Shown one piece after another: positions 13,746 to 62,263 of a stretch of DNA of 64,000 nt (positions are counted from its first letter, which is position 1; every line of letters starts with the position of its first letter). The notes under the pieces are model-generated. The model had not been told where the DNA came from, ran no database searches, and saw only the letters and a program-made list of their open reading frames with translations. Where the stretch lies: assembly GCA_029907545.1 (NCBI GenBank), contig JARYLR010000001.1:62001-126000 (forward strand), written 5' to 3'. A program made the position numbers and the translations under genes. This stretch comes from Candidatus Bathyarchaeota archaeon (lineage in GTDB: Archaea; Thermoproteota; Bathyarchaeia; Bathyarchaeales; Bathycorpusculaceae).

Positions 13746-13864
13746 CGCCGGGGAAGGGATTCGAACCCCTGCGAGCCAAAGGCCCACTGGCTTACCTGTC
13801 TCAGCCCTCTTCGTTCTGCCGATGGATCTCGAGGCCAGCGCGATAACCACTCCGCCACCCCGGC
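13746..13864 (-). tRNA. tRNA-Ser(CGA) with 35-nt intron at position 37/38
   Basis: Reverse-strand class II tRNA. Acceptor GCCGGGG pairs with CCCCGGC, discriminator G. The D region contains GGCGGAGTGGTTATCGC. Anticodon stem CTGGC pairs with GCCAG. The loop is C-T-CGA-G-(intron)-A, giving anticodon CGA (reads UCG Ser). A long variable arm (TGGGCCTTTGGCTCGC) and T-arm AGGGGTTCGAATCCCTT follow. Exonic length is 84 nt. CCA is not encoded. Confidence 0.9.
13793..13827 (-). other. tRNA-Ser intron
   Basis: 35-nt insertion between G37 and A38 of the tRNA, the canonical archaeal site. It starts ATCCATCGGCAG and ends GAGACAGGTA. Removal restores a seven-base anticodon loop closed by CTGGC/GCCAG. Expected to be cut at a bulge-helix-bulge by the archaeal splicing endonuclease, which is not encoded in this window. 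Confidence 0.82.
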
Positions 13865-50759: not shown

Positions 50760-51599
50760 ATGGAGTTAACTGACGCCGTTTTAGACATGAATTGGGCTGA
50801 AGTTGCCGAAAAAATAAAGGTTTTCATCAAAGACTACGCCGAGAAGGCAGGCGCAAAGGGGTTGGTAGTCTCGTTATCGGGAGGAGTTGACAGCTGCACT
50901 GTAGCAGCACTTTCTTCGTTAGCCATCGGCGGAAAAAACGTCCTAGGGCTCATGCTTCCCGAGAAAGAAACATGGAGCGAAACAGACATCGAACACTCCA
51001 AACTTGTTGCCAAAAAATTCTCCCTCGAAACTCAGCAGTGTGACATCACGTCGACGCTAAAAGCACTTTACCGTTCGATACCCGTGTTTGATCCCTCAGA
51101 AAAAGTCTGCAAAGGAAACCTAAAAGCGCGGACACGGATGATATACGTTTACTATTACGCGAACAAACTCGGCAGAATCGTCTGCGGCAGCTCAGACAAG
51201 TCTGAGACCATGCTGGGCTATTTCACGAAATGGGGAGACATCGCCGCAGACATATCGCCAATAATGGATCTATACAAAACCCAAGTAAGAAAACTCGCCC
51301 GATACATCGGCATACCTGAACCAATAGTCACAAAACCCTCTTCGCCCGCCCTATGGCCGGGACAGACCGCTGAGAACGAGCTTGGCTTAAAATATGAGCA
51401 CCTTGATCTGGTGCTTTACGGGCTGGAGCATTTCATGAACACCGACGACATAGCAGAACAGGTCAGCGTGCATAAGACTGTTGTTGAAAAAATAAGGAAA
51501 CGGTGGCTTTCAGCAGAACATAAAAGGCGAGTATTGCTGACCACAAAACTTGAGTACCGCACAGTTGGAATGGATTTCAGACTCCCACGTAGCCGATAG
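50760..51599 (+). CDS. nadE: NAD+ synthase
   Basis: 279 aa from ATG 50760 (MELTDAVLDM). Adenylates and amidates nicotinic acid adenine dinucleotide. PP-loop SGGVDS (40-45), LMLPEKET, KARTRMIYVYYYANKLGRIVCGSSDKSETMLGYFTKWGD and TKPSSPALWPGQTAENELGLKYE are diagnostic. There is no fused glutaminase domain, but a nitrilase gene follows 22 bp later. A TATA box at 50718-50726 supports this start. Confidence 0.95.
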   Translation: MELTDAVLDMNWAEVAEKIKVFIKDYAEKAGAKGLVVSLSGGVDSCTVAALSSLAIGGKNVLGLMLPEKETWSETDIEHSKLVAKKFSLETQQCDITSTLKALYRSIPVFDPSEKVCKGNLKARTRMIYVYYYANKLGRIVCGSSDKSETMLGYFTKWGDIAADISPIMDLYKTQVRKLARYIGIPEPIVTKPSSPALWPGQTAENELGLKYEHLDLVLYGLEHFMNTDDIAEQVSVHKTVVEKIRKRWLSAEHKRRVLLTTKLEYRTVGMDFRLPRSR

Positions 51600-51621
51600 A
51601 AAGAGACAAGGAGAAAACGTG

Positions 51622-52452
51622 ATGCAAAAATTCAAGATCGCTCTTGCACAAATCGAATGTAAACAGACAGATAAAGAAAGCAATCTGGAAAAAATCAGCA
51701 AAGCCACGGCAAACGCAAAAAAGCAAGGAGCAAAACTTGTAATCTTTCCCGAACTTGCACTAACTGGCTACGTCGTAAAAGATGAAATCTACGAGCTGGC
51801 AGAGCGTATACCAGGACCAACAACTGATTCAATAGCAAAACTGGCAAAAAAAACAGGAACAAACATCGTTTTCGGCATGCCTGAGCTTGGCGAGAAGGCA
51901 CAAGGGACGCTATACAATGCAGCGGTTTTAGTTGGCCCCAAAGGATACATCGGCAAATATCGCAAAATGTACCTCCCAACTCACAGCGTCTTTGAAGAAA
52001 AAAGATATTTCCGCCCAGGCTACCAGCCAGCCACGCTGAAAACAGAACTTGGACATCTCGGCTTAATTATCTGCTATGACCTTTTCTTTCCAGAAGTAAG
52101 CCGGCTAACACGCCTAGGCGGCGCCCAGTTAATAGTCTGCATTTCTGCCTCACCCGCAATACGCAGAACATTCTTTGAAACTCTCATCGCGGCAAGAGCA
52201 ATAGAAAACTCGGCATTTATCGCATACGTAAACCTAGCAGGCATCGAAGACGGCTTACAGTTTTGGGGAGGCAGCCGACTTGTAGGCCCTCAAGGCAAGA
52301 TCCTTGCAAAGGCAGACTACGACAAGGAAGACCTTGTTATCGGCGAAGTCGATTACGCAGACTTGAGGCCTATTGAGGCTTTTATACCCACACTGAGAGA
52401 CCTGCGCCCAGAACTTTTCGACAAATTGAAAGAAGCTGCAGAAACCTTCTAG
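51622..52452 (+). CDS. Carbon-nitrogen hydrolase (nitrilase superfamily)
   Basis: 276 aa from ATG 51622 (MQKFKIALAQIECK), with AAGGAGA upstream; GTG 51619 is adjacent. Catalytic triad: Glu in VIFPELALTGYVV, Lys in GKYRKMYLPTHS, Cys in GLIICYDLFFPEVS. Glutaminase-like, omega-amidase or other amidase activity is possible. Cotranscription with nadE suggests it could act as the ammonia-supplying glutaminase that is fused to NadE in bacteria and eukaryotes (inference). Alternative is a stand-alone metabolite-repair amidase. Confidence 0.88.
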   Translation: MQKFKIALAQIECKQTDKESNLEKISKATANAKKQGAKLVIFPELALTGYVVKDEIYELAERIPGPTTDSIAKLAKKTGTNIVFGMPELGEKAQGTLYNAAVLVGPKGYIGKYRKMYLPTHSVFEEKRYFRPGYQPATLKTELGHLGLIICYDLFFPEVSRLTRLGGAQLIVCISASPAIRRTFFETLIAARAIENSAFIAYVNLAGIEDGLQFWGGSRLVGPQGKILAKADYDKEDLVIGEVDYADLRPIEAFIPTLRDLRPELFDKLKEAAETF

Positions 52453-52455
52453 AGG

Positions 52456-53628
52456 CTACCCTAGTTTTTTAACCGCCTTCTCGATGCGATCTAGAGCCTC
52501 TACAAGTTGCTCGTATGCTGCTGCATACGAAATCCTAAGGTAACCTTCCCCACGACTGCCAAAGGCAGAGCCTGGAACTGCGACGACGTTAGCTTCTTTT
52601 GCAAGAAACTCCACAAAGGCTTCTGAGGTCTTTCCCAACGCTTTTATGTTTGGAAAAGCGTAGAACGCGCCTTTCGGGACTCCGCATTCGACCCCCTCGA
52701 TTTCGTTGATTCTCTTGCAAACCAATCGGCGTCTTCTGTCAAACTCCCGAACCATCTGGCTAATAGAGCCCTGCGGTCCCTGCAACGCCGCTAACGCACC
52801 GTACTGCGCCACCGTGTCAACACAGGCAACAACATACTGGTGCACAAGCCAAAGGGCCGCAATAAGTTCCTTAGGGCCATATACATAGCCCAGCCGCATA
52901 CCGGTCATTGCATAGGTTTTTGAAAAAGAATTAACTACAAGAGTCCGCTCGCGCATGCCGGGAAAGGCGGCGAGGCAATAGTGCTTTGCGCCATCGTAGA
53001 GAATCTTCTCGTAAACCTCATCAGAGATTACAATAAGGTCATGCTCCACAGCGATTTTAGCTAATGCTGCAATCTCATCGTACGAAAGAACGGCGCCGGT
53101 AGGGTTGTTAGGAAAGTTCAGGATCATCACACGTGATTTTTTTGTGATAAGTGATGTCACATCACCAAGTGAGGGCTTGAAATTATTCTCTTCCAACAGA
53201 GGAACGAAAACAGGCACACCGCCGACAAGCCGAACGCCAGGCGCATACAAAACGAACCCCGGGTCGGTGGTGATCACTTCATCGCCAGGATTGACGAGGC
53301 TCATGAGGGCTAGAAAGATTGCTTCCGTTGCTCCCGTGGTCACAAGTATCTCTGAGGCAGGGTCATAGGTTAAGCCGTAGTCTGAGAACGCTTTTTTCGC
53401 GAGTTCTTCTCGAAGTTCAGGGATTCCGTTTGTGGGCGCGTAATGCGTTTTGCCTTCCAACGCTGCTTTTGTGTAAGCATCCAAAACGTGGCGAGGCGGA
53501 GTAAAATCTGGCTCTCCAACGCTTAAATAGATTGTCTGACTCTTTTTGTCTGTCAAAGCGAAAAATCGGCGAATTCCAGACGGCTTAATGTTTTTAAGAC
53601 GCTCAGCAGGCTTTAAATTTGAAATCAA
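52456..53628 (-). CDS. PLP-dependent class I aminotransferase (aspartate/aromatic-type)
   Basis: 390 aa. PLP motifs: TTGATEAIFLALMSLVNPGDEV, LNFPNNPTGAVLSYDEI, VISDEVYEKILYDGAKHY, the Schiff-base lysine in VVNSFSKTYAMTGMRLGYVYG, and FGSRGEGYLRISYAA (substrate Arg). Substrate cannot be fixed. Convergent with the nitrilase gene (three-base gap). Confidence 0.92.
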   Translation of the reverse strand: MISNLKPAERLKNIKPSGIRRFFALTDKKSQTIYLSVGEPDFTPPRHVLDAYTKAALEGKTHYAPTNGIPELREELAKKAFSDYGLTYDPASEILVTTGATEAIFLALMSLVNPGDEVITTDPGFVLYAPGVRLVGGVPVFVPLLEENNFKPSLGDVTSLITKKSRVMILNFPNNPTGAVLSYDEIAALAKIAVEHDLIVISDEVYEKILYDGAKHYCLAAFPGMRERTLVVNSFSKTYAMTGMRLGYVYGPKELIAALWLVHQYVVACVDTVAQYGALAALQGPQGSISQMVREFDRRRRLVCKRINEIEGVECGVPKGAFYAFPNIKALGKTSEAFVEFLAKEANVVAVPGSAFGSRGEGYLRISYAAAYEQLVEALDRIEKAVKKLG

Positions 53629-53774
53629 CGTTTATCCTCGATATGCATTGCTGTCTGAGCATAAATTCTTTGCTATAGATTTTCCTAGAAACTGTTAGCG
53701 TTTTCATTGCAAAAAGCTAATAGAGCCCGTATACAAACTTGTATCCATTTCGTATGCCACAGGAGGGAAAGGTC

Positions 53775-54239
53775 TTGAAGCTTAAAGACAGCGTTCAGAT
53801 ATGGCTAGCAAGCTCTTTAAACGACCCTGTTTCAAAAATACTTGCAAAAAATAGTCACTTAACGTTAATACAGCTCGAAACATTTCTAATTGACGCTTTA
53901 GCAGAAAATTTAGCTGGCAAATCGCTTACATACGATGAAAAAGCCAATTTACGGCTAATTAAGGCAAAAATAAGCCGAGGCGCCTTCAATAGGACATTAA
54001 AACAAGCCAAAGATAACGTCATCAAATCCATCTATACAGTACTGCTATTAGGGTATCTTGGAGTGTTGGAAAGCACAGCACTCGACCCCTATCTCGAAAT
54101 TGCAAACAAATTGCAAGATTATGTGGCAGCACACAAAAATCTGTCAAACAACGAAGGCAATTCAGAAAACCATAAAAAACTCATAGAAATGATCCGGGAA
54201 GAGCTAGAAACAGGCCTAAAAACCCTCTCAAGTCCATAA
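53775..54239 (+). CDS. All-helical protein of unknown function
   Basis: 154 aa. I start it at TTG 53775 (MKLKDSVQIWLASSL) because AGGAGGG lies about seven bases upstream; a longer frame begins at 53739. Predicted helices: SVQIWLASSLNDPVSKIL, LTLIQLETFLIDALAENLAG, EKANLRLIKAKISRGAFNRTLKQAKDNVIKSIYTVLLLGYLGVL and a C-terminal HKKLIEMIREELETGLKTL. The LTYDEKANLRLIKAKISRGAF part looks like a helix-turn-helix. No membrane segment. The next gene is another HTH protein and both lie near the origin. Confidence 0.6.
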   Translation: MKLKDSVQIWLASSLNDPVSKILAKNSHLTLIQLETFLIDALAENLAGKSLTYDEKANLRLIKAKISRGAFNRTLKQAKDNVIKSIYTVLLLGYLGVLESTALDPYLEIANKLQDYVAAHKNLSNNEGNSENHKKLIEMIREELETGLKTLSSP

Positions 54240-54545
54240 AAAGAGCGCGCGTGACATCACAAATCACAAGAACAAGTTGCTGTGTAGAGCAGTTCTACCT
54301 ATTTGAAAAGAGCGCTAAAACAAAGCTAAAAAATGAAAATAAAGGCAAATTGTTGAAATTTTCAGCAGAAAAAAGAAACACTGTCTGGAGGAGTCAAACT
54401 TGCTTAGCTGTGACTTGTGACGTCATATAGCACTAAAACGTGCGCAAACCATAAACCTTAAATGCTGTACGCCATGCCTGTGATGTGTGATGCAACATGG
54501 CAGGCAGCATATTATCACGGCGGCATCACAGGAGGGAGATGCTTG
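54240..54545. promoter_or_regulatory. Control region with repeated GTGA/TCAC motifs upstream of membrane-anchored wHTH gene
   Basis: 306 bp without a gene. Sites: GTGACATCAC at 54251-54260 plus TCACAAG, TGTGACTTGTGACGTCA at 54409-54425, TGTGATGTGTGATGCA at 54479-54494, and CATCACA at 54524-54530. A weak TATA (CCTTAAATG, 54457-54465) would start transcription near 54487, right on the third site. GGAGGGAG at 54531-54538 is the ribosome site of the next gene. The arrangement suits autoregulation. Confidence 0.5.
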
Positions 54546-55280
54546 ATGGTTGATCTTTTGTTAATTACGATTGGAGTCTTATTTGGAATGGCTGCCATCA
54601 TCACAGCGGGAATTTTGAGGAAACTCAAACAAGCTGGAGAGGAATATCGGAAAGCAAAGAGCGCTTTCAGTGACATTATTCTAAGTTTTGATAAGCAGCT
54701 TGAACGTGAATCCAAGCGACTAGAACTTGTTGCATATAAGCTGGAGGCTTCATCTTCAAGAAACAGCATGATTTCTGCAAAGATCTCACAAATTGAAAAC
54801 GATCTCACAAATCTTAAGTCCAAAATTGACGAGTTCCTTGCCAATAAGGAGCAATCTGTGATGTCACTACGCGATCTCGACAAGCAAGTGCGTGATATTA
54901 TTGCGTCACAAGAATCTTTGAGTACAAAAGTCGCTGATATTGAGTCAAAGGCATCACAACTTGCGCAGATCCCAGAGCCCAAAATTGACGCTGTGATACC
55001 CATTAGACGCGATAGAGCGTTATCGCCCTTGACTGGCACTGAGCTCGCCGCGTTAGAATACCTTGCATCTGAAGGCCCGAAAACGGCACCGGAAATCAGA
55101 TGGAAAATAAGGCTTAGCAGAGAGCATACGGCGAGACTTATGAAGAAACTTTACGAAGCAGGCTATTTAGAAAGGGACCAAAGCAAAATACCCTTCAAAT
55201 ATAGCGCTAAAAAGGAACTAGAGAAGGTATTAAAGAAAACTGGCGACAACGCGCCCGTTACGTCAAATGGACAAAGCTGA
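54546..55280 (+). CDS. Membrane-anchored coiled-coil protein with C-terminal winged helix
   Basis: 244 aa from ATG 54546, seven bases after GGAGGGAG; the longer frame from 54462 is not supported. N-terminal membrane helix (LLLITIGVLFGMAAIITAGIL, 4-24). A long coiled coil follows (about 25-165; SKRLELVAYKLEASSSRNSMISAKISQIENDLTNLKSKIDEFL). A MarR-like winged HTH is C-terminal (LSPLTGTELAALEYLASEGPKTAPEIRWKIRLSREHTARLMKKLYEAGYLERD). It would link DNA to the membrane. Repeated TGTGATG/CATCACA motifs lie upstream and within the gene. Function unknown. Confidence 0.7.
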   Translation: MVDLLLITIGVLFGMAAIITAGILRKLKQAGEEYRKAKSAFSDIILSFDKQLERESKRLELVAYKLEASSSRNSMISAKISQIENDLTNLKSKIDEFLANKEQSVMSLRDLDKQVRDIIASQESLSTKVADIESKASQLAQIPEPKIDAVIPIRRDRALSPLTGTELAALEYLASEGPKTAPEIRWKIRLSREHTARLMKKLYEAGYLERDQSKIPFKYSAKKELEKVLKKTGDNAPVTSNGQS

Positions 55281-55341: not shown

Positions 55342-55773
55342 CTATGGTGTTTGCCGGTTTGAGCTAATTTGGGGAATGCTGGAAACGAGTTTGTATCTTA
55401 GATTGTTTCCTGCGCCGTTTTTCAGCAGTACGCCTTGTGCAGTCATTCTGGACAGGTATGTAGAGACCGTGCTTAGTGAGACAGGTTCCTTGATTTCTTG
55501 CTCGTAAAGGGTCTGCACTTCATGAGAAGAAAACCAAACCAAAGGAAAATTCTTCTTTAGTAAAAGTTTCATTTTCTCGTATTTGCTTTGTATGCCTTCG
55601 ATCAAGTTTCGGTTAGATTCGAGGTGCCCGTCTGAAATATCTGAAACCCCGCCCAGCAGTTCAACCATGTCCAGAAGCCGCTGTGCTTTCTCGCGGTTTA
55701 TTCTTCCTTCTAGGGCTATAGTATACTTGTTGCCCTCATCGTCAGATACCTCGACGCGAATCTTTGCAGGCAT
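55342..55773 (-). CDS. Helical winged-HTH-like regulator
   Basis: 143 aa from ATG 55773 (MPAKIRVEVSDDEGNKYT); a longer frame begins at 55806. The N-terminal beta hairpin (IRVEVSDDEGNKYTIALEG) is followed by a helix (REKAQRLLDMVELLGG). The C-terminal winged-helix region reads FSSHEVQTLYEQEIKEPVSLSTVSTYLSRMTAQGVLLKNGAGNNLRYKLV. It is divergent from orc1/cdc6 across the putative origin and could bind there. Specific function unknown. Confidence 0.65.
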   Translation of the reverse strand: MPAKIRVEVSDDEGNKYTIALEGRINREKAQRLLDMVELLGGVSDISDGHLESNRNLIEGIQSKYEKMKLLLKKNFPLVWFSSHEVQTLYEQEIKEPVSLSTVSTYLSRMTAQGVLLKNGAGNNLRYKLVSSIPQISSNRQTP

Positions 55774-55974
55774 AGAAAATCTTGCGCCCCGTACTAGCGT
55801 GTTCACAAGTTTGCGTGTGTAGGTTATAGATATTGTGGTGAAGGAGTTTTAGTGAAAAAGGATATTTATGGGTCAAAAAGAAGAAAAAAGGAAAATTTGC
55901 AGTCTTGCTGCGCTAACAACCTTCACACAGATTGTTTTTCCAGTTTCGCAGATAGTTGAGCTTTGAAGCCGTTT

Positions 55975-55994
55975 CTCCAGTGGAAAGCAAGGGG
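55975..55994 (+). repeat. ORB-like element 1
   Basis: CTCCAGTGGAAAGCAAGGGG: the dyad core plus the G-run of archaeal origin recognition boxes (consensus of the type TTCCAGTGGAAACnAAnGGGG). 17 of the 20 positions agree with element 2. Confidence 0.7.
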
Positions 55995-56225
55995 TGGTAG
56001 TTTCACAAGAAGGAAAGCAAAAACATGTCAAAAAAGTTGAAAACAAAAAGAAACACAGACATCTTTGAGTATATTTCACATGGATTTCACATCTGTGAAG
56101 GAAGCTTACTTTCTACAGAGGAGTTTCATCTCTTTTTTCTGGCAAGGGATAAAACAATAGGCCCGCCATTTTGTTTTCTCCTCTAGAAAGGAAAAGGCAA
56201 TATAAGCCTTTGGCGTTTTCCTTCA

Positions 56226-56397: not shown

Positions 56398-56417
56398 TTC
56401 CAGTGGAAAGCACGGGG
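56398..56417 (+). repeat. ORB-like element 2
   Basis: TTCCAGTGGAAAGCACGGGG, directly after the AT-rich stretch. Nearly the same as element 1, including the following G and T residues (GCGTG versus TGGTA). Confidence 0.7.
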
Positions 56418-56504
56418 CGTGTAGGTTCTATACGATAAGGTAAGCCAGAAAGAAGTGTAGCTTTGTTGTGTTTTCTTTATTTTTCTATACTAGAGGGCTT
56501 ATCT

Positions 56505-56524
56505 CTCCACTAGAAACAGTAGTT
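56505..56524 (+). repeat. ORB-like element 4 (partial, no G-run)
   Basis: CTCCACTAGAAACAGTAGTT keeps the dyad core of element 3 but lacks the GGGG block. It overlaps the likely transcription start of orc1/cdc6, suggesting autoregulation. Confidence 0.4.
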
Positions 56525-56551
56525 CATCCTTTGAAAGAGGAGAGTGCTGAA

Positions 56552-57805
56552 GTGAACGACAAAGATGTGCTAGATGCCGTGTTCGACCACTTCGCAGGGT
56601 GTGCACTGGTTTTCAGGGATAGAGAAGTTTTACGGCATGATTATGTGCCCGGGAAGTTGCCTCATCGCGAGGAACAGATACGCCGGCTTGGCGAAACAGT
56701 GGCACCTATACTAAGAGGCGAACGGTGTTCAAACATATTTATTTATGGAAAGACTGGCACTGGTAAGACTGCGGTAACGCGGCATGTGCTTTCTCGACTT
56801 GAGGTAAAGGCAAAGGAGCTTGGCGCGCCCGTTAGGCTTTGTTACGTGAACTGCCGTATGGTGGCGTCTGAATATCGGGTGCTGGCATCGATGTGCCAAA
56901 GTGTAGGGCTGTCTGTTCCTTTTACTGGCTTGTCAGCGGGAGAGGTCTTTGACCGCTTCCGGGCAGAGCTTGACACGTCTAGAGTAGTTTTTGTTGTTGT
57001 TTTAGATGAGACCGATGCGCTAATCAAAGCTCGCGGTGATGATTTGCTTTACGAGTTGACACGGATAAATGAGACAATGAAACGAAGCAAGGTGACTGTG
57101 ATCGGGATTTCTAATGACCTACGGCTGAAAGAGTTTCTTGATCCTCGTGTTCTTAGCTCACTTAGCGAGGAGGAGATGGTTTTTAGACCTTATAACGCGG
57201 ATGAGCTGAAAAACATCTTGCTTGACCGGGCAAGGCTGGCTTTTAATGATAGCGTGTTGTCGGATGCAGCTCTTAGCTTGTGTGCTGCTTTAGCTGCTGC
57301 GGAGCATGGCGATGCAAGGCGCGCCTTGGATTTGCTGCGGGTAGCTGGCGAAGTGGCTGAGCGGCGAGGCGCTGTTACAGTGACCGAGGAACATGTTCGG
57401 GAGGCGGAAAAGCATATTGAACATAACCGTGTTGTTGAGGCTTTACGTAATCTTACGCTTCACTCAAAACTTGTAACTCTTAGTGTTTATCATTTGAACG
57501 GGAAGGCTCCACAAGGAGCTATAACAGGGGAAATATACGAGGTCTACAACGAGCTAAGCGGAGAATTAGGCGTTACTCCCTTGACACAGCGGCGTCTGGG
57601 CATGCTTATAAACGAGCTTGACGCCATGGGAATTTTGAACGCCAAAATCGTCAGCATGGGGCGTTATGGTAGAACAAAGAAGATTCGATTGGAAGTTGCC
57701 CGTGCCCAGATACGCGATGTTTTTTCAGATGACAGCCGCCTAGGGCTTCTCATTGATTACGCGCCTAAGTGCTTGACCAAGCAAACACAACAAAAGAGCT
57801 TGTAA
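56552..57805 (+). CDS. cdc6: Orc1/Cdc6 replication initiator
   Basis: 417 aa from GTG 56552 (MNDKDVLDAVFDHF), chosen because GAGGAG lies eight bases upstream; a longer frame from 56468 would place ORB-like element 4 inside the coding region. AAA+ domain: Walker A GKTGTGKT (66-73), Walker B VVVLDETD (148-155), sensor 1 VIGISNDLRLKEFL, sensor 2 HGDARRALDLLRVAGE. The C-terminal winged helix (LTQRRLGMLINELDAMGILNAKIVSMGRYGRTKKIRL) reads ORBs. Lies next to the putative origin. Confidence 0.94.
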   Translation: MNDKDVLDAVFDHFAGCALVFRDREVLRHDYVPGKLPHREEQIRRLGETVAPILRGERCSNIFIYGKTGTGKTAVTRHVLSRLEVKAKELGAPVRLCYVNCRMVASEYRVLASMCQSVGLSVPFTGLSAGEVFDRFRAELDTSRVVFVVVLDETDALIKARGDDLLYELTRINETMKRSKVTVIGISNDLRLKEFLDPRVLSSLSEEEMVFRPYNADELKNILLDRARLAFNDSVLSDAALSLCAALAAAEHGDARRALDLLRVAGEVAERRGAVTVTEEHVREAEKHIEHNRVVEALRNLTLHSKLVTLSVYHLNGKAPQGAITGEIYEVYNELSGELGVTPLTQRRLGMLINELDAMGILNAKIVSMGRYGRTKKIRLEVARAQIRDVFSDDSRLGLLIDYAPKCLTKQTQQKSL

Positions 57806-57816
57806 ACAAGCAAGTT

Positions 57817-59394
57817 TTAGCTGAATACTAGTTGCGTAGTTTCCAGTGTTTGCAAGTTGACAATAGGAACTTTGTTCGGCGTTGGTGTGAATCCGTTGCG
57901 CGCCATATAGCTGGTTTGTCCCTGCCAGCAGCCGGAATTTACAATTAAGACTCCGCGGTAAGTGCCATACTCAAGAGCATGTATATGTCCACCATGAAAG
58001 ATATCGGGCACGCGCTCTATGACTAGAAAGTCGCCGGTCTCAGGTGACAGTGGAGTTTTTCCTCCGTATATCGGCGCAAGGTGGCGGCTCTGAAGTAGCA
58101 AGCGCATTGCTTTTTCAGGGTTGTTGTGAGACATGCCTGGAACGGTGGAAATCACGTCGTCTAGGCTTCTCCCGTGGAACATGAGAACCTCCACACCGTG
58201 GATGCTGAGGTAACAGGGGCTTCCAAGTGAGCGCACGTTTCGGGTTTCTTGCAGAGTTTCCAGAAACTCGTTTGCTATTGCCGGCTGTGGCAGGGCCTTT
58301 CTTGGAGAATCATGGTTGCCTGGGATTATGATTATTTCTATGTAGTCTGGGATTTGTTCTATGTACCTTGCTGCCAGCCGGTATTGCTTGTAGATGTCTT
58401 TGATTACGAGCTCTTTTACTTGGTTTGGGTAGACTCCTACGCCGTCAACGATGTCGCCTGCTATCAGAACGTATTTTACGTGGCTGGCGATTTCACGCCA
58501 GTTTTCGTTGCCGTATTTACCGTTAAGCCAGAGGAGGAACCTGCTGAGGGCTTCTTTCTGAAATTTTGTGCTGCCTACATGTAGGTCTGACGTGAGTACT
58601 GCGTATACTGGCTCGTCTGCCTTGTGCGGCGTTTTTTGTGCGACGTCTGGAAGGATGATGTCGTCAGCGATTAAGAGTGCGCCTCTTGTTTTTGTGACAC
58701 TTACGCATATAACTTGATCAAGAAGCAAGGCGCGAGCCTTTTTCTTGATTTCTTCCGGTGTACTTTGGGGGACAAGAATAGTGACGTTTGATTTTAGGTC
58801 TTCAAGAGTTATTATTGTACGTTGCTGTGATTCACGTTTATCCGTGACCATTCCTATTATTTTCAGCTTTACACCTGGAGACGCTTTAAACGCGTCTATT
58901 ATTGACGCTGCCCCTTTCACGTCTATTCTTTGTCTGAGAAGTTTTTCGAGACGTTTGAATCTGTCTCTGAAGTATTCTACGTAATCTTCAACGGCGCCGT
59001 CTGAGCCAAGCTTGCTGCATGGGTCGTCTATGATCTTTGTCTGCGCGGCAACTTCCTTTGCGTAGGGGTGGTAAGCACTTTTGCTCTCTGTTATGTGAGG
59101 CTTTGAGAGTGTCGTTGCCTCTTGCGCTGGCGGGGGGCTTAGCTCTTTGGACAGTGCGGGCTCCTTTAGCAGGTCTATCAGTAGCTCTTTGCGGATGAAG
59201 AATGGTTTTTCTTTAAGATCGTTAAGGGCGGCTAATGCCTTGTTTATTGTTTCCGACGGGTCTTCGGTAGAGGCGAGTTCACTTAGAAATTCGAATGCTT
59301 CTCGATCAAGTTGGTATCCTGCTGCAATAGCTTGCGCCACGGCTTGTTGAAGCTTTTCTGCCTTGTTTATAGTTGCAGAGTTTTCCAGTTGCAT
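57817..59394 (-). CDS. polB: DNA polymerase D small subunit DP1 (proofreading exonuclease)
   Basis: 525 aa. N-terminal helical region, an OB fold (LKIIGMVTDKRESQQRTIITLEDL), then a calcineurin-like phosphoesterase domain: SDLHVGS (269-275), GDIVDG (313-318), GNHD (359-362), MFHGRSLDD and GGHIHALEYG. All metal-ligand motifs are intact, so 3'-5' proofreading is expected. It partners with DP2 at 45977-49381. Convergent with cdc6 (11-bp gap). Confidence 0.96.
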   Translation of the reverse strand: MQLENSATINKAEKLQQAVAQAIAAGYQLDREAFEFLSELASTEDPSETINKALAALNDLKEKPFFIRKELLIDLLKEPALSKELSPPPAQEATTLSKPHITESKSAYHPYAKEVAAQTKIIDDPCSKLGSDGAVEDYVEYFRDRFKRLEKLLRQRIDVKGAASIIDAFKASPGVKLKIIGMVTDKRESQQRTIITLEDLKSNVTILVPQSTPEEIKKKARALLLDQVICVSVTKTRGALLIADDIILPDVAQKTPHKADEPVYAVLTSDLHVGSTKFQKEALSRFLLWLNGKYGNENWREIASHVKYVLIAGDIVDGVGVYPNQVKELVIKDIYKQYRLAARYIEQIPDYIEIIIIPGNHDSPRKALPQPAIANEFLETLQETRNVRSLGSPCYLSIHGVEVLMFHGRSLDDVISTVPGMSHNNPEKAMRLLLQSRHLAPIYGGKTPLSPETGDFLVIERVPDIFHGGHIHALEYGTYRGVLIVNSGCWQGQTSYMARNGFTPTPNKVPIVNLQTLETTQLVFS

Positions 59395-61042: not shown

Positions 61043-62263
61043 TCAGAAAGGAAGGGTGTTTACTTTTTGCGGCTGCTTTGCAAAGGCTACTTGGCTGCTT
61101 GCTCTTAGCTCGTTGACGTAGAGTATCTCGCCCTCTATTCTGCATTCGGATTCCACAGTTATTTCTTCGCCGTAAACGTTTCTTGCGTGGGCACCGTTTC
61201 GCAGCAGAATTCTTTTGCCATATACGTCTTCTACGTGGGCGTCTTTGCCAACGATGATTTCGTCTGCCCGGAGTGTTCCTTTCGCTTCTCCTCTTTTGCC
61301 TATTTCAATGAACCGTGCAGTAGCACCTTCATCTGTGGCTATCCGTCCGCCTACTTCGATGTGGTTTTGGGTTTGCACCTTTTTTGAGCGAAGAACTCCT
61401 CCGACTTCGATGTTTTCGGCTTCTATTTCGCCGGAAACCTCTGCTTTTCCTCCGACTTCTAGGTCTCCAGAAAGCTTCAAGGCGCCATTCACGCTTATTT
61501 TTCCTCCGACCTCAAGCTCTTCGCCGGCTGCTGAGCCTGAGATATCTATTTTCCCTCCTACATCGATCTCTCTGAACTCAAGATCTCCTTGAACTCTCAG
61601 CGTGCCCCCTACCTCTATTCTATCCCCTTTGCTTTTGCCAGCGAGGCTGACAGCGCCTCCCACCTCTATATCCTCAAATTCTAAGGGAGCGCTTGACTCA
61701 AAACAGCCTCCGGCATCGATCTCGCGGATTTTGCCTCCTCCCACGCGCGCTGTCCCTCCCACTGACAGCGAGCCAAGCTGGACGCGTGCCTCTGCTTCAA
61801 GGCTTCCGCCGACATCCACGTCCTCCGCATGTATTTCACCTTTAGCTCTGAAACTTCCGCCGACATCTATGGATTCAGCTTTTACATCACCGTCAACTCT
61901 AAGGCTTCCGCCGACGTCTATGCCCTCTGATTCCAGTTTTCCATGGACAACCAGTGCTTCATCGGCTTCAATGCTTGCCGCGGAAACGTTCCCGTCAACC
62001 TCTAGGTAGCCGTCACTGACTTCAATGTTGTTTTTAACCTCCAAGTCACCGCGAATCTTTATGTTGCCCTCTGCTTCAAGTCCTGCTGCGGAAAGACTGC
62101 AGTCAAAGATATTGTTGCCTTCGCAGTAAATAGTCCCAGAAACCTTCACAGGCGAAGAAGACTCTTCACCTTTTACGGTTGCATGGCTACCTACCATTAG
62201 ATCTCCTTCAACGAAGCTTAATGTTACGGTTGCTCCTTTCGGGATCGATGTTTCATTGCTCAT
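61043..62263 (-). CDS. Bactofilin-like polymer-forming beta-helix protein
   Basis: 406 aa from ATG 62263 (MSNETSIPKGATVTLSF). About 20 short rungs, each roughly 16-18 residues, with a repeated EVGG/DVGG turn (ESEGIDVGGSLRVDGDVKAES, IDVGGSFRAKGEIHAED, FREIDVGGKIDISGSAAGE, EAENIEVGGVLRSKKV). This is a right-handed beta-helix of the bactofilin (polymer-forming cytoskeletal) type. It lacks a signal peptide or membrane helix, so it is probably cytosolic and self-assembling. The repeated DNA also makes the locus prone to recombination. Preceded by a small gene. Confidence 0.75.
   Translation of the reverse strand: MSNETSIPKGATVTLSFVEGDLMVGSHATVKGEESSSPVKVSGTIYCEGNNIFDCSLSAAGLEAEGNIKIRGDLEVKNNIEVSDGYLEVDGNVSAASIEADEALVVHGKLESEGIDVGGSLRVDGDVKAESIDVGGSFRAKGEIHAEDVDVGGSLEAEARVQLGSLSVGGTARVGGGKIREIDAGGCFESSAPLEFEDIEVGGAVSLAGKSKGDRIEVGGTLRVQGDLEFREIDVGGKIDISGSAAGEELEVGGKISVNGALKLSGDLEVGGKAEVSGEIEAENIEVGGVLRSKKVQTQNHIEVGGRIATDEGATARFIEIGKRGEAKGTLRADEIIVGKDAHVEDVYGKRILLRNGAHARNVYGEEITVESECRIEGEILYVNELRASSQVAFAKQPQKVNTLPF

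Follow-up and report, generated by a model that had tools for sequence, protein, structure and literature searches.

In a review of 2024, the only machinery described for chromosome segregation in archaea is of the SegAB type and ParA-like, and how it drives segregation is said not to be understood (PMC7617429). A review of 2016 posed the questions of the appearance of archaeal centromeres and of their possible clustering (PMC5120986). SegB and AspA, the latter from the AspA-ParB-ParA partition system of the Sulfolobus plasmid pNOB8, recognise palindromes that lie upstream of the genes encoding them, and both count as possible centromere-binding proteins (PMC5120986). RocS from Streptococcus pneumoniae has a winged helix and a coiled coil, attaches to the membrane and takes part in segregating the chromosome; RacA from Bacillus subtilis shares the winged helix and the coiled coil and binds centromere-like repeats (PMC11500499). 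The parS sites of the bacterial ParABS systems are several palindromes near the origin, some of them inside coding sequences, with few elsewhere (PMC7333895).

The locus considered here contains a gene for a protein with a predicted membrane helix, a coiled coil and a winged helix (the wHTH protein), preceded by an array of TGTGAY half-sites. It would work like a mix of AspA and RocS, sharing pieces of each. AspA is plasmid-borne, works with ParB and ParA and has one 23-bp palindrome, whereas the present system is chromosomal and has multiple sites. AspA is presumably soluble; in contrast, the present protein has a membrane helix and, in its family, no ParA partner nearby. SegB of the Sulfolobus SegAB system resembles it in having palindromes upstream of its own operon that are possibly both operator and centromere (PMC5120986), but SegB is reported to be specific to archaea, its gene always lying downstream of segA, whereas here the winged helix is of MarR type, a membrane helix is present and no ParA-type gene is adjacent. 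Compared with RocS and RacA, the domain order is reversed (membrane helix first, winged helix last), the winged helix is of MarR instead of MerR type, a predicted transmembrane helix is found instead of the amphipathic helix of RocS, and there is a clear palindromic array at the own promoter. The protein shares the winged-helix fold of archaeal regulators of the MarR/TrmB/Lrs14 type, the best PDB fold matches being MarR proteins (ZitR and Rv0880), but where MarR proteins usually have dimerisation helices it has a membrane helix and a coiled coil longer than 100 residues, and the Pfam MarR cut-off is missed. As with parS, several palindromes are concentrated near a predicted origin; in contrast to parS, the sites lie within about 1–1.5 kb and overlap the promoter, with no ParB and no ParA nearby in the family.

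Materials and methods

The window is a 64,000-bp stretch, positions 62001–126000 of one contig of a 1.46-Mb Bathyarchaeia genome in 55 contigs. Genome-wide counts were obtained by pattern searches. Array blocks were defined from an alignment of the sequences upstream of the gene in 61 loci of the family. Order- and class-level loci (L146–L185 and L266–L285) served as a natural experiment on the presence and absence of the wHTH gene. One of them, G165 (L276), is uninformative, having a palindrome and masked bases at the expected position of the wHTH gene, and some loci, e.g. L279, were left unscored because their contigs end.

Results

Density of the motif

The earlier note described GTGA/TCAC motifs clustered around the wHTH gene at a density far above that of its neighbours. 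All the sites it named are present (GTGACATCAC at 54251, TGTGACTTGTGACGTCAT at 54409, TGTGATGTGTGATG at 54479, CATCACAG at 54524 and, within the gene, those at 54599, 54857 and 54952), and there is one more in-gene site at 54904. The density holds as well. The genome contains 267 copies of TGTGAYG/CRTCACA, both orientations counted, and nine fall into the 704 bp between 54255 and 54958, where 0.13 are expected (Poisson P = 2.4e-14 for one such window, or about 1e-10 once multiplied by the number of windows, a correction that does not cover the choice of motif). In a motif-blind count over the 320 bp 5' of the wHTH gene in the 61 family loci, ATCACA/TGTGAT ranked first among all 6-mers, with 51-fold enrichment (369 occurrences vs 181 in much larger flanks). 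When loci are pooled, the background has about 0.5 half-sites per kb, and the figure rises to 21–37 around the promoter and to 18 at position −1300. The cluster is real and larger than was first reported: the 300 bp upstream of the gene are conserved and a remote array at 53125–53165 had gone unlisted, while the in-gene part is mostly not conserved.

The full palindrome GTGAYRTCAC occurs four times in the genome, each time within 51040–54858. In six complete or nearly complete genomes of the family, 15 of 22 such sites lie within 6 kb of the wHTH gene. Order- and class-level genomes having the gene carry 2–3 copies at the locus and 1–6 elsewhere, the outliers being commoner in some of them. 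This distribution looks like that of a dedicated protein–site pair, not of a genome-wide regulon.

A global regulon was considered separately and rejected. An exact double box occurs once in the genome, and six further copies differ by one mismatch, one of these within the same array; there is thus no sign of a large regulon.

Boxes of the promoter array

The features of the locus are listed in Table 1.

Table 1. Coordinates of the features in the window.
Feature	Position	Strand	Description
nadE site	51040–51049		GTGACATCAC; shared with a genus relative and one other locus
Array E	53125–53165		CATCACACGTGATTTTTTTGTGATAAGTGATGTCACATCAC; about 1.1 kb upstream of Box D, within aminotransferase coding sequence
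ORF154	53775–54239	+	Conserved all-alpha protein, upstream partner in the module
Box D	54251–54268	−	GTGACATCACAAATCACA, family form TGTGACGTCACAAATCACA; directly behind the ORF154 stop
Box A	54409–54427	+	TGTGACTTGTGACGTCATA, family consensus TGTGATGTGTGAYRTCATA; 5' of BRE/TATA
BRE/TATA-like promoter element	54448–54463	+	ACCATAAACCTTAAAT, family form ACCATAAaCCTTAAAT; conserved in the alignment
Box B	54479–54496	+	TGTGATGTGTGATGCAAC, family form CTGTGATGTGTGATGCAAC; over the predicted transcription start; near-invariant in 61 loci
C repeats	54514–54531	−	ATCACG and CATCACAG; the second shares bases with the ribosome-binding site GGAGG
wHTH gene	54546–55280	+	244-aa protein
In-gene sites (54599, 54857, 54904, 54952)	54599–54964		Positions mostly unconserved across the family
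HTH155	55342–55806	−	Small protein that matches a winged helix weakly; its gene and the wHTH gene are convergent
ORB-like element 1	55977–55997	+	CCAGTGGAAAGCAAGGGGT; similar cores before Cdc6 in many relatives
ORB-like element 2	56400–56417	+	CCAGTGGAAAGCACGGGG; in the gap before Cdc6
Orc1/Cdc6 initiator gene	56468–57805	+	Pfam Cdc6_lid, Cdc6_C
DNA polymerase D small subunit gene (PolD1)	57817–59394	−	Pfam DNA_pol_E_B; syntenic; context

Box D, the reverse complement of Box A, is kept in nearly all of the 61 family loci and also in order and class loci, and in many of the relatives the ORF154 stop codon and the box overlap. The only exact match of TGTGATGTGTGA in the genome is Box B. The family consensus of the C repeats is AATCAC...(AATCAC)...AATCACAGRGG, which runs into the ribosome-binding site. 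Of 54 loci scored, 52 have a spacing of 66–75 bp from A to B, and in 47 of 61 the BRE/TATA element lies 21–22 bp before Box B. With spacings so nearly fixed, Box B should cover the start of transcription, both promoter and start being predicted. Boxes A and B thus flank or overlap the TATA element and the predicted start, and the arrangement has the geometry of an operator on its own predicted core promoter.

Six loci (L092, L100, L103, L110, L114 and L116) have no ATG, GTG or TTG near the conserved start of the wHTH gene. The aligned start codon is ACG, inside the operator-like repeat AATCACGGTTGAC; a non-canonical start (ACG or ATC) possibly keeps expression low in these genomes.

Remote and in-gene sites

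Array E coincides with the window of strongest synonymous constraint in the whole aminotransferase gene (25 sequences, z 2.7). In genomes lacking this gene, it is non-coding, longer and located between a nitrilase-like gene and ORF154. In contrast, synonymous constraint is not elevated in the codons of the nadE palindrome or of the in-gene sites, and hence neither was counted as selected. The nadE site is probably outside the system, and the in-gene sites are probably due to coding or chance.

The wHTH protein

The earlier note ascribed a membrane helix, a long coiled coil and a DNA-binding domain to the product, and both the sequence and the AlphaFold2 model bear this out. An N-terminal membrane helix (residues ~4–25) is followed by a continuous coiled-coil helix to residue 139, a flexible linker with an invariant PI at 152–153 and a MarR-type winged helix (164–233). 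In the model, built from 45 sequences, one helix spans residues 2–139 and a disordered linker leads to the winged helix, where pLDDT is mostly 75–83. The pTM is only 0.30, so the relative placement of the domains is not defined. Pfam gave HTH_27 above the cut-off and MarR/TrmB just below it, NCBIfam gave weak coiled-coil (SMC) and Lrs14 matches, and Foldseek matched the winged helix to ZitR and Rv0880 with probability 1.00, which agrees with a MarR-like fold. Sequence, model and fold match together point to the combination of DNA-binding domain, coiled coil and membrane attachment seen in RocS-like tethers. Dimerisation helices flanking the winged helix as in MarR are absent from the model; the protein presumably dimerises by its coiled coil.

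A membrane-helix-like segment was detected by hydropathy in 100 of 101 orthologues examined. The most conserved part of the protein is the near-invariant recognition helix LSREHTARLMKKLY, and the half-site meanwhile is invariant. The gene is single-copy and present in 80 of 91 genomes of the family (52 of the 53 good ones) and in 137 of 163 genomes of the class. In the literature we found no paper on this gene or array.

Neighbouring genes and the predicted origin

ORF154 is conserved more widely than the wHTH gene (149 of 163 class genomes). Its model is all-alpha (pLDDT 83), and it has no match in Pfam, NCBIfam or PDB, by sequence or by fold. Downstream, ORB-like sequences of the form CCAGTGGAAAG...GGGG at 55977 and 56400 lie beside the Cdc6 gene, 0.7–1.1 kb 3' of the wHTH gene. 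Minima of cumulative skew, taken at the level of the window only, were at 52.9 kb (GC) and 55.3 kb (keto). These data support, but do not prove, a predicted origin within about 2 kb of the locus. The proposed position beside a putative origin is thus supported in this genome by the two ORB-like elements, the Cdc6 gene and the skew minima. In family f23, the remaining Cdc6 gene is 344 kb away in a complete one-contig genome, and the module stays beside PolD1; adjacency of the module to Cdc6 is common, not obligatory.

A motif scan for KGGxGK[ST] around the locus detected no ParA-type ATPase of the kind that accompanies SegB and AspA, in the loci of the family, of the class or in the named related loci. 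The sole exception to the lack of ParA and ParB nearby is a ParA-type gene beside ORF154 in family f14. Because no ParA-type gene is nearby in the family, the system was not classed with ParABS, SegAB or AspA.

In the family f14 locus (L272:5049–5879, minus strand), the ParA/Soj-type ATPase gene is divergent next to ORF154 and the wHTH protein has no membrane helix; it is possible that the anchor was swapped for ParA. In another locus (L060:3751–6286), genes for a HerA helicase and a NurA nuclease lie between the wHTH gene and HTH155, and a gap equal in size is seen there in many other lineages. Elsewhere in the window, an Rfam tRNA match at 13746–13864 (minus strand) is 119 nt long and was missed by ARAGORN, so this tRNA probably contains an intron.

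Presence and absence of the gene and the array

In 48 order and class loci with the wHTH gene, 388 half-sites lie within 600 bp of the ORF154 stop, compared with 58 expected. In contrast, nine loci without a detectable wHTH gene have six near this stop vs 4.8 expected, and no palindrome was found within their fetched flanks, although ORF154 is kept and HTH155 and Cdc6 are present in most. The weakly similar orthologue of family f14 keeps both the recognition helix and the palindrome. Since the array co-varies with its gene, the wHTH protein is the best candidate binder. The suggestion that the protein binds its own gene therefore gains support from comparison of genomes, where the array accompanies the gene and is absent without it in spite of ORF154, HTH155 and Cdc6. 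The lineages that lost the gene may represent few independent events. ORF154, whose stop codon is often overlapped by Box D, may be a partner.

Where a HypF gene separates ORF154 from the wHTH gene, Box D stays behind ORF154 and another palindrome is found about 580 bp further on, inside HypF; the 400 bp directly 5' of the wHTH gene contain few or no half-sites. Hence the sites in these lineages are not simply the wHTH promoter, and this is among the grounds for favouring an architectural role above autoregulation alone.

Insertions between ORF154 and the wHTH gene comprise a HypF-like gene in L171, L176, L183 and L272 and an XRE plus CBS-like gene in L173, L175 and L276, the names being read from sequence. 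Orthologues in L184, L278, L281 and L283 (family f10) and in L272 (family f14) have no membrane helix; palindromes are kept in L184 and L272, the two that were checked. In L283 (G092) the wHTH copy is frame-broken.

Wider distribution

With an alignment profile, coiled-coil winged-helix relatives were found in 152 of 299 sampled genomes of the phylum, Bathyarchaeia included. Most of 20 fetched loci keep the membrane helix and the order ORF154 – wHTH – HTH155(−) – Cdc6 – PolD1(−), and typically 4–9 TGTGAY half-sites surround the wHTH start, compared with 0.2–0.6 expected (P from 1e-3 to 3e-11). Families f25 and f55 appear to be ammonia-oxidising archaea, an assignment made partly from gene content. 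In L295 and L302–L304, the coiled-coil winged-helix gene lacks the membrane helix and the array is weaker or absent; in three of these four loci the gene adjoins HTH155.

In loci resembling ammonia-oxidising archaea (L287–L289, L296, L298 and L305), TGTGAT half-sites are written into the coding sequence at the 3' end of ORF154. They are read as codons xxT GTG ATx (Val-Ile pairs), an apparent DNA site in a coding region.

Discussion

We prefer the reading, with a probability of about 0.6, that the protein binds its own locus, regulates its own gene and also tethers this origin-proximal locus to the membrane. The N-terminal helix would seat the protein in the membrane, and the coiled-coil rod, probably dimeric, would reach out, so that the C-terminal MarR-type winged helix could read TGTGAY half-sites that pair up into palindromes TGTGAYRTCACA and are joined by one further half-site at a distance of 7 bp. 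The array, its conservation and its co-variation with the gene are results of comparison, as are the promoter geometry and the domain layout, and they suggest that the membrane-attached protein very probably binds the words of the array. From them we infer direct binding, dimerisation, repression, membrane localisation and tethering. Binding at A, B and the C repeats would turn the own gene down, since A and B flank TATA and cover the start and the C repeats enter the ribosome-binding site. With Box D and the remote Array E brought in as well, the complex would grow and might be looped. Through such binding, the segment near the origin would be fixed at the membrane, in the manner of a centromere-type anchor that needs no ParA; as the protein is predicted to be anchored in the membrane and has its sites gathered at a single locus beside the initiator gene, it may hold the origin-side region of the chromosome at the cell membrane. 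The most economical account is self-binding with autoregulation, tethering being the physical consequence of an anchored binder. Tethering is the weakest link of this reading, because two families, f10 and f14, keep the palindromes without a membrane helix, and hence anchoring would not always be needed.

That the cluster reflects chance or composition is practically negligible as an explanation. The motif was chosen post hoc, which inflates the significance, but the motif-blind ranking of 6-mers, the density within the genome itself (P about 2e-14) and the conservation over many genera contradict it, and we regard the comparative data as having already refuted it. Just as remote is an RNA element, a leader or riboswitch, in place of DNA sites. 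Box B and the C repeats do sit in the predicted leader, the last C repeat overlaps the ribosome-binding site, and CCTGTGATG and CATCACAGG could pair; yet the word is also found upstream of TATA in Box A, on either strand (compare D with A) and, in Array E, at a distance of 1.1 kb, Rfam has no match at the locus, and the leader folds no better than shuffled sequences (z −0.42). Binding of the array by HTH155, ORF154, Cdc6 or a general factor is improbable. HTH155 adjoins and has its weak winged-helix match, and Box D hugs the ORF154 stop codon throughout the class, even where HypF splits ORF154 from the wHTH gene; but the nine loci that have ORF154 (mostly with HTH155 and Cdc6) and lack the wHTH gene carry no array, and the palindromes are not ORB-like.

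The promoter array alone suffices for plain autoregulation, and the alternative in which there is nothing else deserves closer attention. The protein would then be a membrane-bound one-component sensor or regulator with its own promoter as the only important target, Array E an auxiliary looping operator and the Cdc6 neighbourhood inherited synteny, with no architectural or segregation role; we consider this combination unlikely. The near-fixed spacing of A and B around TATA and the start, the small number of other good sites in the genome, the sites kept by f10 and f14 orthologues that have no membrane helix, and the non-obligatory adjacency to Cdc6 all agree with it. Against it, the half-sites are many and extend over more than 1 kb, with a remote array maintained inside coding sequence; the membrane helix is near-universal, with no recognisable sensor domain; and linkage to replication genes across the class and beyond exceeds the needs of simple autorepression. 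The preferred reading, in which the anchored binder also tethers the locus, has a more far-reaching form that we put forward tentatively: an ancestral ParA-independent centromere or anchor, in which a membrane-anchored winged-helix protein on an array by the initiator gene holds the origin at the membrane and regulates itself, retained across Bathyarchaeia and lineages resembling ammonia-oxidising archaea.

For chromosome positioning and segregation in most archaea, this locus is a concrete candidate, in which a conserved DNA array and a probable binder with a built-in membrane anchor are found beside the initiator gene. Since the module and the TGTGAY array are found in genomes resembling ammonia-oxidising archaea, the proposal should be open to test in cultured strains, among them Nitrosopumilus maritimus with its single mapped origin (cited in PMC4010727). 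Should autoregulation prove to be the only function, this would still be an unusually deeply conserved archaeal operator, with one array maintained inside an unrelated coding sequence.
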